Assembly: GCF_022768985.1 (NCBI RefSeq)
Contig: NZ_JALEKL010000009.1
Coordinates: forward strand, 310,001-374,000
Length of the DNA: 64,000 nt
Reading direction: 5' to 3'
From: Methanosphaera sp.
GTDB taxonomy: Archaea; Methanobacteriota; Methanobacteria; Methanobacteriales; Methanobacteriaceae
How positions within the stretch are numbered: position 1 is the stretch's first letter; the number at the start of each line of letters is the position of its first letter. Under the pieces are notes generated by a model that saw nothing but the letters and a program-made list of their open reading frames with translations, was not told the DNA's origin and did no database searches. The position numbers and the translations under genes are program-made. This document shows positions 39,190-43,567 of this stretch, piece after piece.

Positions 39190-39807
39190 TTATACATAGT
39201 ATAATACACTATTCTTATCACCATCTCCACCCCATTCAAGAGTGTTGAAATCTTCATCAATTTTAAGGTCAACCAGTGTTTTATTTAAGTCTGGATGTTT
39301 TTCAAGGAAGTTTATTGCATCAGTCTTCTTCTGATTTGATTGTTTTACAAGTTCATCAACCTGAATACTTGAAGAATTTTTCTGACTATTTAAATTAGAC
39401 AGACTCATTTCACCTTTTTTATATTTTTGATATGCATGCATATATGGGATATATGCCTCTTCATATCTTTTTTCAACTGTTAATCTATCAATTTGAATTT
39501 CAAGATATTGTCGGTATGTTTCATTTCGTGTACTATTTTTAAATTCTTCAAGTACTTTTATTTCATCAGTTGTATTTTTTATCTCCTCTTCTGTTGATGT
39601 AATATCATCTTCTACTTTAATTGTTCCTTTATCCCATTTTTTAACATGAGCAATGTCTGATATATTTTCAATAGTACTTGCAAGTTGTATTGTCTGGTTA
39701 AATTGTTTACGATCCTGTTCATCAAGATAACTACTTGTAGCATAAATTATACCTGCAGCAAGTATTACAACTATTACTACTCCTATTGCTAGTTTCTTTT
39801 TGTTCAT
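39190..39807 (-). CDS. Membrane-anchored coiled-coil protein, copy 1
   Basis: 205 residues. An N-terminal positively charged stretch is followed by one membrane segment (about 6-26, LAIGVVIVVILAAGIIYAT), and the rest is hydrophilic, Lys/Glu/Gln-rich and probably coiled coil, facing outward. No family recognised. It is a clear paralogue of the gene at 39890-40510: matching N-terminus, DEQDRKQFNQTIQLAS, NETYRQYL.IQIDRLT and FLEKHPDLNKTLVDLK. It has no ribosome binding site; a TATA-like TTTAAATA lies about 20 bases before the ATG, so the message may be leaderless. Function unknown. Confidence 0.7.
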   Translation of the reverse strand: MNKKKLAIGVVIVVILAAGIIYATSSYLDEQDRKQFNQTIQLASTIENISDIAHVKKWDKGTIKVEDDITSTEEEIKNTTDEIKVLEEFKNSTRNETYRQYLEIQIDRLTVEKRYEEAYIPYMHAYQKYKKGEMSLSNLNSQKNSSSIQVDELVKQSNQKKTDAINFLEKHPDLNKTLVDLKIDEDFNTLEWGGDGDKNSVLYYV

Positions 39808-39889: not shown

Positions 39890-40510
39890 TTAAGGTATTA
39901 GTTGTATACTATGGTTTTTATCTCCTGTTCCGCCCCATTCTTGGGTATTGAAGTCTTCATCAACTTTTAGATCAACTAGTGTTTTATTTAAGTCTGGATG
40001 TTTTTCAAGGAAAGTTATTGCTTCAGTTTTCTTCTGATCTGTTTGTTTGCTTACTTCATCTTGTTGTGTTTTTGATGAATTTTGACAATGTCTATATACA
40101 GATAGGCTTATTTCATTGTTTCTATATCTTTTATATGCTTTTGTATCTTCTAAACTTAGTTCATGAAATCTTTTCTCAGATGTTAATCTATCTATTTGAA
40201 TTTGAAGATATTGCCTGTATGTTTCATTTCGTGTTTTATTTTTAAATTCTTCCATTACATTAATTTCATTTGTCATATTTTTCAGATGATCTTCAGTTGT
40301 TGTAATATCATCATCTATTTTAATTATTCCTTTATCACACATTCTAACATAGTTGATGTCTGATATGTTTTCCATTGTACTTGCAAGTTGTATTGTCTGG
40401 TTGAATTGTTTTCTATCCTGTTCATCCAGGTAATTATTTGTTGCATATATTATACCAGCTGCAAGTATTACAACTATTACTACTGTTATTGCTAGTTTCT
40501 TTTTGTTCAT
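39890..40510 (-). CDS. Membrane-anchored coiled-coil protein, copy 2
   Basis: 206-residue paralogue of the adjacent gene, with the same single N-terminal membrane segment and a long hydrophilic helical domain. Identity is highest at the two ends; the middle has diverged (for example YRNNEISLSVYRHCQNSS versus YKKGEMSLSNLNSQKNSS). About 40 bases upstream of the ATG also match the first copy, so the duplication included the promoter region. No ribosome binding site. It is divergent from the DUF815 ATPase gene by 67 bp, which may share control. Function unknown. Confidence 0.7.
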   Translation of the reverse strand: MNKKKLAITVVIVVILAAGIIYATNNYLDEQDRKQFNQTIQLASTMENISDINYVRMCDKGIIKIDDDITTTEDHLKNMTNEINVMEEFKNKTRNETYRQYLQIQIDRLTSEKRFHELSLEDTKAYKRYRNNEISLSVYRHCQNSSKTQQDEVSKQTDQKKTEAITFLEKHPDLNKTLVDLKVDEDFNTQEWGGTGDKNHSIQLIP

Positions 40511-40577: not shown

Positions 40578-41891
40578 ATGTATAGATTGGTTTCAAGATT
40601 GATTTTATATAAAGATGAAGATAGTATTTTATTTAATTTAGCTAAGATTTTCAGAAAGTATGATTTAAGTAAGAAGGATTTTGATATTCGTTATGAAACT
40701 ATTAGCCAGATTAATAGTGAAGTTGGACGTATTGTTGAACTTGCATCAAAGTATGGTTTTAGTGGGGATTTATGGCATGATTATCTTATTTATCTTCTTT
40801 TAAGTTCAGAGAACAGTCTTTGTGTTATGTTTGAAAGATGTGAATCTGGTGAGAATTTAACTATTGATGAGTTTATGAGAAATGATCTTGAAGTTATTGT
40901 TGAGCTTATGAATTATGATTTTTCAGCAATTGAAGATGAACTTGGTATTAATAGTTTTAGTATGATTCGTAACTTTACACAGAGTAGTAGTTTTGATTAT
41001 TCAAATCATAATGCAAGTGGTCTTATCTGTGATGTTTGCAGTAAGGTTAAAGCTGGTTGTAGTGTTGATGAGTTATATAGTGTTATTCGTAATTTCTATC
41101 ATAAGTATGGTGTTGGTATTTATGGTTTAAATAAGGCATTTAAGTTGTCACATAGTAATGGTGATGATTTTAGTATTGTTCCTATTACATCCTTTGATGA
41201 TAGTATTTCTCTTGATGATCTTCTTGGATATGAATACCAAAAAGGTGCTTTAGTTGATAATACTGAGGCTTTTATTCGTGGTTGTAAGGCTAATAATGTT
41301 CTTTTATATGGTGATGCTGGTACTGGTAAATCTACTAGTATTAAGGCTATTTTAAATAAGTATTATGATGATGGTCTTAGGATTATTGAAGTTTATAAGC
41401 ATGAAACTAAGTATCTTTCAAGGATTATTTCAGAGATTAAGGATCGTAATTATTTCTTTATTCTTTACATGGATGATTTATCATTTGAGGAATCTGAGAG
41501 TGATTATAAGTATCTTAAGGCTTTAATTGAAGGTGGTCTTGAAATTACTCCTGATAATATTCTTATTTATGCTACATCTAATAGGCGTCATCTAGTCAGA
41601 GAAACTTGGAATGAACGTAGTGATACATCTGCTGAGACTGATTTGTATCATTCAGATACTGTACGGGAGAAGCTTTCTCTTGTTGATAGGTTTGGTATTA
41701 CTATTGGTTATTATAAGCCTACATTTAATGAGTATGTTGATATTGTAATTAGTTTAGCTCGCAGATATCCTGAAATTACTTTAACTGATGAGGAGTTAGA
41801 AAGTGAGGCTAAGATTTGGATTAGAACTCATGGTCATCCTTCTGGTCGTACTGCTGAGCAGCTAGTTTATTACTTGCTTGGTAAGTGTTAG
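40578..41891 (+). CDS. DUF815-family AAA+ ATPase
   Basis: 437-residue ATPase of the DUF815 family, best known from Firmicutes and not characterised. An N-terminal helical region of about 200 residues precedes the family core: LDDLLGYEYQKGALVDNTEAFI, Walker A GDAGTGKST (245-253), Walker B FILYMDDLSFEE, the hallmark YATSNRRHLVRE, and EKLSLVDRFG. The C-terminus includes GHPSGRTAEQLV. Codons are strongly T-ending (GTT, GGT, GAT, ATT), unlike many neighbours with A-ending codons, which fits transfer or a different expression class. Only a GTGAT-like site precedes the ATG. The divergent tandem membrane proteins may be partners. Confidence 0.85.
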   Translation: MYRLVSRLILYKDEDSILFNLAKIFRKYDLSKKDFDIRYETISQINSEVGRIVELASKYGFSGDLWHDYLIYLLLSSENSLCVMFERCESGENLTIDEFMRNDLEVIVELMNYDFSAIEDELGINSFSMIRNFTQSSSFDYSNHNASGLICDVCSKVKAGCSVDELYSVIRNFYHKYGVGIYGLNKAFKLSHSNGDDFSIVPITSFDDSISLDDLLGYEYQKGALVDNTEAFIRGCKANNVLLYGDAGTGKSTSIKAILNKYYDDGLRIIEVYKHETKYLSRIISEIKDRNYFFILYMDDLSFEESESDYKYLKALIEGGLEITPDNILIYATSNRRHLVRETWNERSDTSAETDLYHSDTVREKLSLVDRFGITIGYYKPTFNEYVDIVISLARRYPEITLTDEELESEAKIWIRTHGHPSGRTAEQLVYYLLGKC

Positions 41892-42102
41892 TTGAATTAT
41901 TTTTCAATTAAAAAGTGTTATTAAATTTATTTGAATTTTTATTTCAAATATTTTTTAGTAACTTTTTTGTGATTTTTGTTGAATTTAGCTAATTTTTAGA
42001 GAAATCCATATGATATTATCCTAATAATTAGTTAAATTTATTTTATTTTTTTTTAAATTATTTTTTATTTTTTGGTGATTTTTGGCTTAGTTTTGCAAAA
42101 CC

Positions 42103-42157
42103 TTTATATACTCAGGGGTACATATTAATAATTGTGGGAAGTTTAGGCAAACCTAAA
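42103..42157 (+). promoter_or_regulatory. Promoter-operator module 1 with DtxR-like palindrome
   Basis: TATA box TTTATATA at 42103-42110 with GCAAAACC upstream as a possible BRE. TTTAGGCAAACCTAAA at 42142-42157 is a 6-bp inverted repeat with a 4-base spacer, placed 39 bases after the TATA start, at or just after the expected transcription start. The palindrome resembles iron- or manganese-responsive DtxR/IdeR/MntR operators (TTAGG...CCTAA). Binding there would block transcription. Confidence 0.6.
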
Positions 42158-42258
42158 TTTAACACAACCATACAATATTAATTTATTGTAGATATTTAGG
42201 ACACTTAAAAAATTATATCCTATGTAATAGAAAAAAATATTTTTTTTATTATCCAACT

Positions 42259-42332
42259 TTTAGGTAAACCTAAATATTTATATACTACTAAAGTATAATA
42301 TATAATTGTAAGAAGATTTAGGTAAAACTAAA
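42259..42332 (+). promoter_or_regulatory. Promoter-operator module 2 with two DtxR-like palindromes
   Basis: TTTAGGTAAACCTAAA at 42259-42274 lies directly upstream of the TATA box TTTATATAC at 42277-42285. TTTAGGTAAAACTAAA at 42317-42332 (one mismatch) follows 40 bases after the TATA start. The stretch from TATA to operator matches module 1 (shared TTTATATACT, ATAATTGT, AAG before the operator), so the module was duplicated 174-175 bases apart. Direction is to the right. No start codon with an open frame follows. Confidence 0.6.
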
Positions 42333-42784
42333 TTTTTCTTAAAATGAGTTAAAACAAGACTATAAAAAAACCCAAAAAAAGTTAAAAAATTGGAAATTTA
42401 ACTATTACAATCCGCACATAAAAGAAATAGTTAAAGCATATTTAAAAAAATCACCTATTATTAAATAAATTTTTTTTAACTAACAACAAAAAAAAGCCTA
42501 TTATAAAATTAACTCATCACTCCTAGTTAAAATAAAAAAAACATAGTATAAACTATAAAAACACAAAAAAGAAAATAAAACCTTATAAAACTCCTAGCAT
42601 CCAGAGTTTTAAAAAATTCCCAAAAATATTTTCTTTCTTGTAATACATACTTTTTTTAATAATTTTTTTTAAAAATCACTTATTTTAAAAACATATTTTA
42701 AATAATTACTACACAAAATTATTTTTTTTAAATAAAAAAAAGAAAATATAAGAAAATTAATCCTTATTTTATTAAATTATTTAC

Positions 42785-43567
42785 TTATTCTAATTTACTA
42801 AGCTCAATATTGCGATCTAATCCAGCATTAAGAGCATCAAAAAGTGACATACCACCATCAAGTGCCTCAATTATAGCCTCTGTAACTCCACCTTTTGTTG
42901 CAGTATTTTTAATAAATTCATCTCTACCTTCAGATGGTACTAAATCATTAGCTTTTTTTGCCACATCCATAAATAATGGGAAGTTTTCAGAAAATTTCTT
43001 AATATCATCAATATTTTCATCATAATCTACTTTTGCAAATACAGCAGGAAGACAGCCTGCAATAATCATATAATTAAGATCATCTTCACATTCTACATTA
43101 AATGTATCAAAGCCAAGTAAATCAAACATACAATCTGCTATATCACATGAATTATATACACCAGCAATTGCAGATGAATCTCTTATTGTATCAGGACCTG
43201 TTGGAATTACACGAACAACATTACTTGATCCTGTTTGTTTTTTAATGTCACTAGTTTTAACTCCTGCCATAAATGATATAACAGTTGTACTATCATCTAA
43301 GTTAAATTCTCCAAGTTTTTTAAACATCTGTGGTGGAACTGAAACAATTATAATATCTGATGTATCTACAATCTTTGAATTATCAGCAATATTATCAACA
43401 AGCTCATTATCATAAAGATCACTAAATGTAAATATAGAACCATTATATGAAAGTTTTAAATTATCAGTTGGAAATCCAATATCTCTTAACTTTAATGCTA
43501 AAGCCTGACCAATATGTCCTGCTCCAATAATACCAATATTATATTTAAAAAAGTCCTCACTAATCAT
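42785..43567 (-). CDS. Pyrroline-5-carboxylate reductase-like protein
   Basis: 260-residue ProC-family protein, which would reduce pyrroline-5-carboxylate to proline with NAD(P)H. It has the N-terminal Rossmann motif IGIIGAGHIGQALALKL, SVPPQMFKKL (about 75-84), VVRVIPTGPDTI (about 117-128; the family usually reads RxMPNTP), and the C-terminal TKGGVTEAIIEAL. The VIPTGP variation and overall divergence leave room for a related reductase role, so no symbol is assigned. No ribosome binding site was seen. It is divergent from nreA. Confidence 0.78.
   Translation of the reverse strand: MISEDFFKYNIGIIGAGHIGQALALKLRDIGFPTDNLKLSYNGSIFTFSDLYDNELVDNIADNSKIVDTSDIIIVSVPPQMFKKLGEFNLDDSTTVISFMAGVKTSDIKKQTGSSNVVRVIPTGPDTIRDSSAIAGVYNSCDIADCMFDLLGFDTFNVECEDDLNYMIIAGCLPAVFAKVDYDENIDDIKKFSENFPLFMDVAKKANDLVPSEGRDEFIKNTATKGGVTEAIIEALDGGMSLFDALNAGLDRNIELSKLE

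Follow-up and report, generated by a model that had tools for sequence, protein, structure and literature searches.

A candidate Methanosphaera-specific family of DtxR-controlled small RNAs with a likely iron-sparing role

The window analyzed here, a 64,000-nucleotide stretch of a Methanosphaera genome (1.6 Mb, 15 contigs), contains a gap toward which both neighboring genes point, an AAA/DUF815 ATPase gene on the left (40578-41891, plus strand) and on the right a ProC-like gene, named from its sequence only (42785-43567, minus strand), which raises the question of what the promoters located in this gap might control. A sequence-only reading had proposed that two small metal-controlled transcripts run rightward from them, as an archaeal parallel to iron-responsive sRNAs, and this proposal is well supported by an operator at feoAB, a predicted structured RNA found across the genus, and complementarity to iron-protein genes. 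We estimate at roughly 70% the probability that the gap specifies one of a family of DtxR-repressed small RNAs that is particular to Methanosphaera and serves an iron-sparing response. The window also carries two similar minus-strand genes in tandem (39190-39807 and 39890-40510; 205/206 aa, starting with MNKKKLAI), which are probably the product of a recent duplication.

Three TTTAGG-N4-CCTAAA-type sites and two TATA boxes were confirmed in the gap. The first promoter has a TATA box, TTTATATAC (42103-42111, plus strand), followed by a perfect DtxR-type operator, TTTAGGCAAACCTAAA (42142-42157). The TATA box of the second, also TTTATATAC (42277-42285, plus strand), is abutted by a perfect operator, TTTAGGTAAACCTAAA (42259-42274), and followed by an operator with one mismatch, TTTAGGTAAAACTAAA (42317-42332), which lies downstream of the inferred transcription start; this promoter is flanked by an operator on each side, 58 bp apart. 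The claim that one unit was copied also held, with TATA-to-operator distances of 39 and 40 bases and 52 identical columns in the alignment of the 91-base units. This duplication is confined to the window genome and its sister genome G001, and one promoter is present at the locus elsewhere. In G001 the first promoter retains an intact upstream operator (TTTAGGTATACCTAAA), with which a decayed operator of the window aligns (CTTAGTTTTGCAAAAC, 42086-42101, plus strand). A further degenerate operator-like sequence, TTTAGGACACTTAAAA (42195-42210), lies inside the first predicted RNA (RNA1, described below).

Perfect TTTAGG-N4-CCTAAA sites occur three times in the 1.6-Mb genome, against none for the reversed-pattern control. 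Two of them are in the gap, and the third, at the genes where the sequence-only reading had suggested looking, is located between feoA and feoB, with a one-mismatch site upstream of feoA. Since this is the sole other perfect site in the genome, we take the gap operators to be of the iron-type DtxR class. Sites with one mismatch show no enrichment in this genome (10, vs 11 for the reversed pattern), so that isolated weak sites are meaningless and the evidence lies in the cluster and its architecture. Across 20 Methanosphaera genomes there are 1-9 perfect sites per genome, with reversed controls at 0 except for 1 in one genome, and a search of 800 kb of other Methanosphaera sequence returned no operator pairs 57-59 bp apart.

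As in a DtxR/IdeR regulon, the operator is shared with iron-uptake genes, perfect or near copies being present at feoAB both in the window genome and in L017, L028, and L034, and the genome encodes a DtxR-family protein. This 239 aa protein (G000:C8:91207), the one clear repressor, harbors Fe_dep_repress, Fe_dep_repr_C, and FeoA domains. Archaeal DtxR regulons were reportedly the subject of a comparative study by Leyn and Rodionov in 2015. Operators are also located between mvhD, which encodes a hydrogenase iron-sulfur subunit, and sufC in several species (L024, L025, and L031), with a one-mismatch counterpart in the window genome (L006, G000:C6:37992), which suggests iron control of cluster assembly. 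At L020 and L032, around position 1500, a perfect operator immediately precedes a gene that reads MNEKIDLSAVSETMLVPLYA... and resembles those of SAM-dependent methyltransferases; this gene may be under iron control.

Members of the DtxR family can sense manganese or iron, and the sequence-only reading had named both metals. A one-mismatch operator, TTTAGGTATAACTAAA (L009, G000:C11:23283), lies ahead of the genes for an HMA-domain protein and a P-type metal ATPase, as might be expected if the repressor sensed manganese or another metal and the RNA belonged to a different metal response. We consider this improbable, given the perfect or near operators at feoAB in several species and those between mvhD and sufC, the FeoA domain of the regulator, and the iron proteins among the candidate targets. 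Of the two metals, iron is favored by the feoAB and sufC sites, and no manganese gene was found.

Comparison of the gap between Methanosphaera genomes, another step that had been proposed, revealed a recurrent arrangement: the same DUF815 ATPase gene is followed by a gap with an operator-TATA-operator unit and then by conserved non-coding sequence. A sequence model of the 95-nt core (R1), constructed from nine other species with both the window and the operators left out, yielded 30 copies, which are distributed over 16 of the 20 Methanosphaera genomes; 119 other Methanobacteriaceae had none, the predicted family being found only in Methanosphaera. In G016 two core matches are located at G016:C1:1471026-1471121 and 1479519-1479602. 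An operator lies upstream of all 30 copies, though it is absent from the model, and in 27 it forms part of a pair 57-59 bp apart around a TATA box; two of the remaining three retain their second site along with a TATA box, and the third is truncated near a contig end. Some genomes carry two or three copies, and most copies are intergenic, often between convergent genes. With a TATA box, a terminator-like hairpin, and no conserved ORF, these copies may be stand-alone non-coding transcripts, and the existence of an RNA family is strongly supported by sequence. The R1 model has no match in the window copy or in G001, which we assign to the family from their synteny, operator pairs, seed segments, and predicted fold. 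It is also unmatched in G005 and G013. Since the single perfect operator of G013 (94% complete) is at feoAB and the model finds no copy there, the RNA may have been lost from this genome.

The window member of the family, RNA2, is a divergent copy predicted to run for ~340 nt from the second promoter (42302-42642, plus strand), with its start placed ~25 nt beyond the TATA box and its end at a U-rich terminator. Its predicted fold (z = -3.6) has the architecture of the 30 copies, in which a 5' hairpin (P1) comes first, GAGUUA/UAACUC pairing encloses the next domain, and a linker left free leads to a terminal hairpin with a U-rich end. On the plus strand of the window, P1 spans 42309-42341, where the halves of the 42317-42332 operator are also predicted to pair with each other; the P2 strands AUGAGUUAA (42344-42352) and UUAACUCAU (42509-42517) pair together, and the terminal hairpin AAGAAAAUA...UAUUUUCUUUCUU occupies 42569-42639. 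The transcript lengths given earlier, about 110 and 170 nt, need revision for the second RNA, whose terminator-like hairpin ends near 42640, while RNA1 is estimated at ~125 nt (42128-42255, plus strand, ends approximate). The predicted fold of RNA1 contains two hairpins, a UAUAUCCUAU motif, and a terminator-like hairpin. RNA1 and its promoter precede the local copy only in the window genome and G001; it probably arose when the promoter and 5' domain were duplicated, and the simplest guess is that it serves the same response as an additional, shorter regulator.

All 33 RNAs folded were more stable than their dinucleotide shuffles (median z -4.8, range -6.2 to -2.5). The outer stem of P1, which lies outside the operator, covaries across the family, with both partners altered in 5 of its 7 pairs. 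In this stem 86.7% of cells are paired, vs 69.4% in shuffles and 16-36% when the strands are slid, and its covariation score was equalled by 0 of 500 shuffles, figures that lean toward structure in that they were counted on strands paired by hand with guidance from predicted folds and joined by a fixed GAAA spacer, because aligning the entire 5' hairpin with MAFFT left its 3' strand out of register. These results bear on the suggestion that the gap makes no functional RNA and holds only relic promoters, decayed metal-uptake genes, or palindromes that bind protein as DNA. Such an origin would fit the divergence of the window copy and its one decayed operator, but the core is conserved in 16 species, the covariation falls outside the operator, a terminator-like hairpin is present in all copies, and no ORF remnants were found in the gap, so that we regard this explanation as very improbable. 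The "traces of lost metal-uptake genes" once proposed are accordingly unsupported, because RNA structure is conserved where ORF remnants are missing. A search of the window gap and four homologous loci against Rfam gave no family match, RyhB and FsrA included; a hit to the KRAS 3'UTR (E 0.31, below gathering) was dismissed as chance.

Which messages might such an RNA reach? The most conserved unpaired segments of the family, AUCACCUAUUAU and CACUCCUUAUUA, are complementary to ribosome-binding sites. They belong to two nearly invariant and mostly unpaired stretches, AAAUCACCUAUUAU and ACUC-A-CACUCCUUAU, which correspond in the window to seed S3 (AAAUCACCUAUUAU, 42448-42461, plus strand), complementary to the ribosome-binding sites of hdrC, a flavoprotein, and a ferredoxin, and to seed S4 (CAUCACUCCUAG, 42515-42526, plus strand), which reads CACUCCUUAUUA in most species. 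An extra seed-like copy, GCCUAUUAU (42496-42504, plus strand), is present only in the window lineage and G001. The seeds match the anti-Shine-Dalgarno type, AUCACCUCCU.

In the window genome the perfect 12-mer complement of S3, ATAATAGGTGAT, occurs six times, once within the RNA gene itself and twice at start codons, those of hdrC and of a flavoprotein of uncertain cluster content. Over the 20 genomes, ATAATAGGTGAT-N2-9-ATG has 39 matches, compared with 15 for a scrambled-flank control and 10 for the S3 pattern in 13 genomes that belong to other genera. The matches include iron proteins, such as Isf-type iron-sulfur flavoproteins, ferredoxins, the hybrid cluster protein (Hcp), rubrerythrin, FrhA, RamA, and HdrC, as well as non-iron genes, RpiA and TatD among them. 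With iron status assigned from names and Cys motifs, and not blind, iron proteins account for 18 of 34 S3 matches vs 2 of 18 controls (Fisher p = 0.003), or 8 of 21 vs 2 of 16 when collapsed to gene families (p = 0.08); flavoproteins of the L112/L123 type were counted as non-iron in this comparison because the CX2CX2C motif is missing. L113 was dropped as a target, its start falling inside an HcyBio gene. For S4, the pattern AATAAGGAGTG-N1-10-ATG matched a NifB-like protein, a ferredoxin, IlvD, an Isf-type protein, methanogenesis marker 9, and others, while the exact short pattern TAAGGAGTG has no start-codon targets in the window genome, because the S4 of this genome has diverged.

The start region of hdrC is complementary to the RNA over at least 9 nt in 10 of 19 Methanosphaera vs 1 of 25 relatives without the RNA (p = 3e-4), a contrast between species that are not independent and with the complementarity absent in 8-9 of the 19. 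Energy-ranked target tests on 400-kb samples gave weak results (p = 0.06 by minimum energy in the window genome; not significant in G016). Complements of at least 11 nt in the window-genome sample were found for hdrC (14), a 655-aa protein read as HdrA (12), a diphthamide-synthesis protein (11), and two others.

Taking into account that the seeds resemble the general anti-Shine-Dalgarno sequence, many mRNAs would pair with them in part. The DtxR-repressed structured RNA could then act mainly by binding a protein, as a sponge, or by pairing with ribosomes or mRNAs in general through these segments, rather than by seed pairing with iron-protein mRNAs. The 14 of 34 S3 matches that are not obvious iron proteins and the weak energy-based tests are compatible with such a role. 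We nevertheless consider it unlikely, as seed conservation reaches past the Shine-Dalgarno core (CUAUUAU, UUAUUAA), scrambling the flank yields fewer matches and few iron proteins, and hdrC complementarity tracks the presence of the RNA.

The iron-sparing role, which is likely from these patterns, could operate as follows. When iron is present, a DtxR-type repressor would bind the operators flanking the TATA box and prevent transcription of the RNA. When iron is absent, the ~340-nt structured RNA would be made from the second promoter and its unpaired C-rich segments (AUCACCUAUUAU, CACUCCU) would base-pair with the Shine-Dalgarno regions of abundant iron-protein mRNAs (hdrC, probably hdrA, ferredoxin, and others), covering the ribosome-binding sites and blocking translation, while feoAB and possibly sufC would be derepressed.

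Both FsrA and RyhB direct several C-rich, single-stranded segments at ribosome-binding sites, as proposed here for the Methanosphaera RNA. Iron sparing by these sRNAs is established in bacteria (PMC12871923), and the likeness to FsrA of Bacillus subtilis and RyhB of enterobacteria consists in an iron-repressed trans-acting sRNA with predicted pairing to iron-protein mRNAs (PMC12871923), which we infer here from sequence. In contrast to these Fur-controlled RNAs, the predicted Methanosphaera RNA has DtxR operators in a fixed flanking pair and an archaeal TATA promoter; it is also larger, is folded differently, and lacks a sequence match to them in Rfam. Among archaea, masking of a ribosome-binding site has been shown for sRNA162 of Methanosarcina mazei (PMC3510493), and sRNA162, sRNA154, and sRNA41 are trans sRNAs reported to act in this way (PMC3510493, PMC5867862), although growth phase or nitrogen is the signal for those described. 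DtxR-family iron regulators are described in haloarchaea (Idr, SirR, and TroR) in the relevant passages of PMC11349517, which do not mention an sRNA in their regulons. In a 2018 review the single mention of iron concerns an antisense RNA that lies opposite a Pyrobaculum Fur gene (PMC5867862), and we found no report of an archaeal iron-responsive sRNA in the literature searched.

On balance, we think it probable that this is the first archaeal iron-sparing sRNA, a genus-specific, multicopy, DtxR-controlled RNA family that evolved independently of RyhB and FsrA, imitates the anti-Shine-Dalgarno end of 16S rRNA, and reduces synthesis of the iron-sulfur proteins central to methanogenesis (heterodisulfide reductase, F420 hydrogenase, ferredoxins, and RamA) when iron is short. 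Methanogens carry a very large load of iron-sulfur proteins, little is known about how they ration iron, and Methanosphaera are common methanogens of human and ruminant guts. If this reading is true, RNA-based iron sparing would have evolved independently in another domain of life with a different repressor, and archaeal sRNA biology would gain an RNA with a clear signal, a regulon, and a target set.
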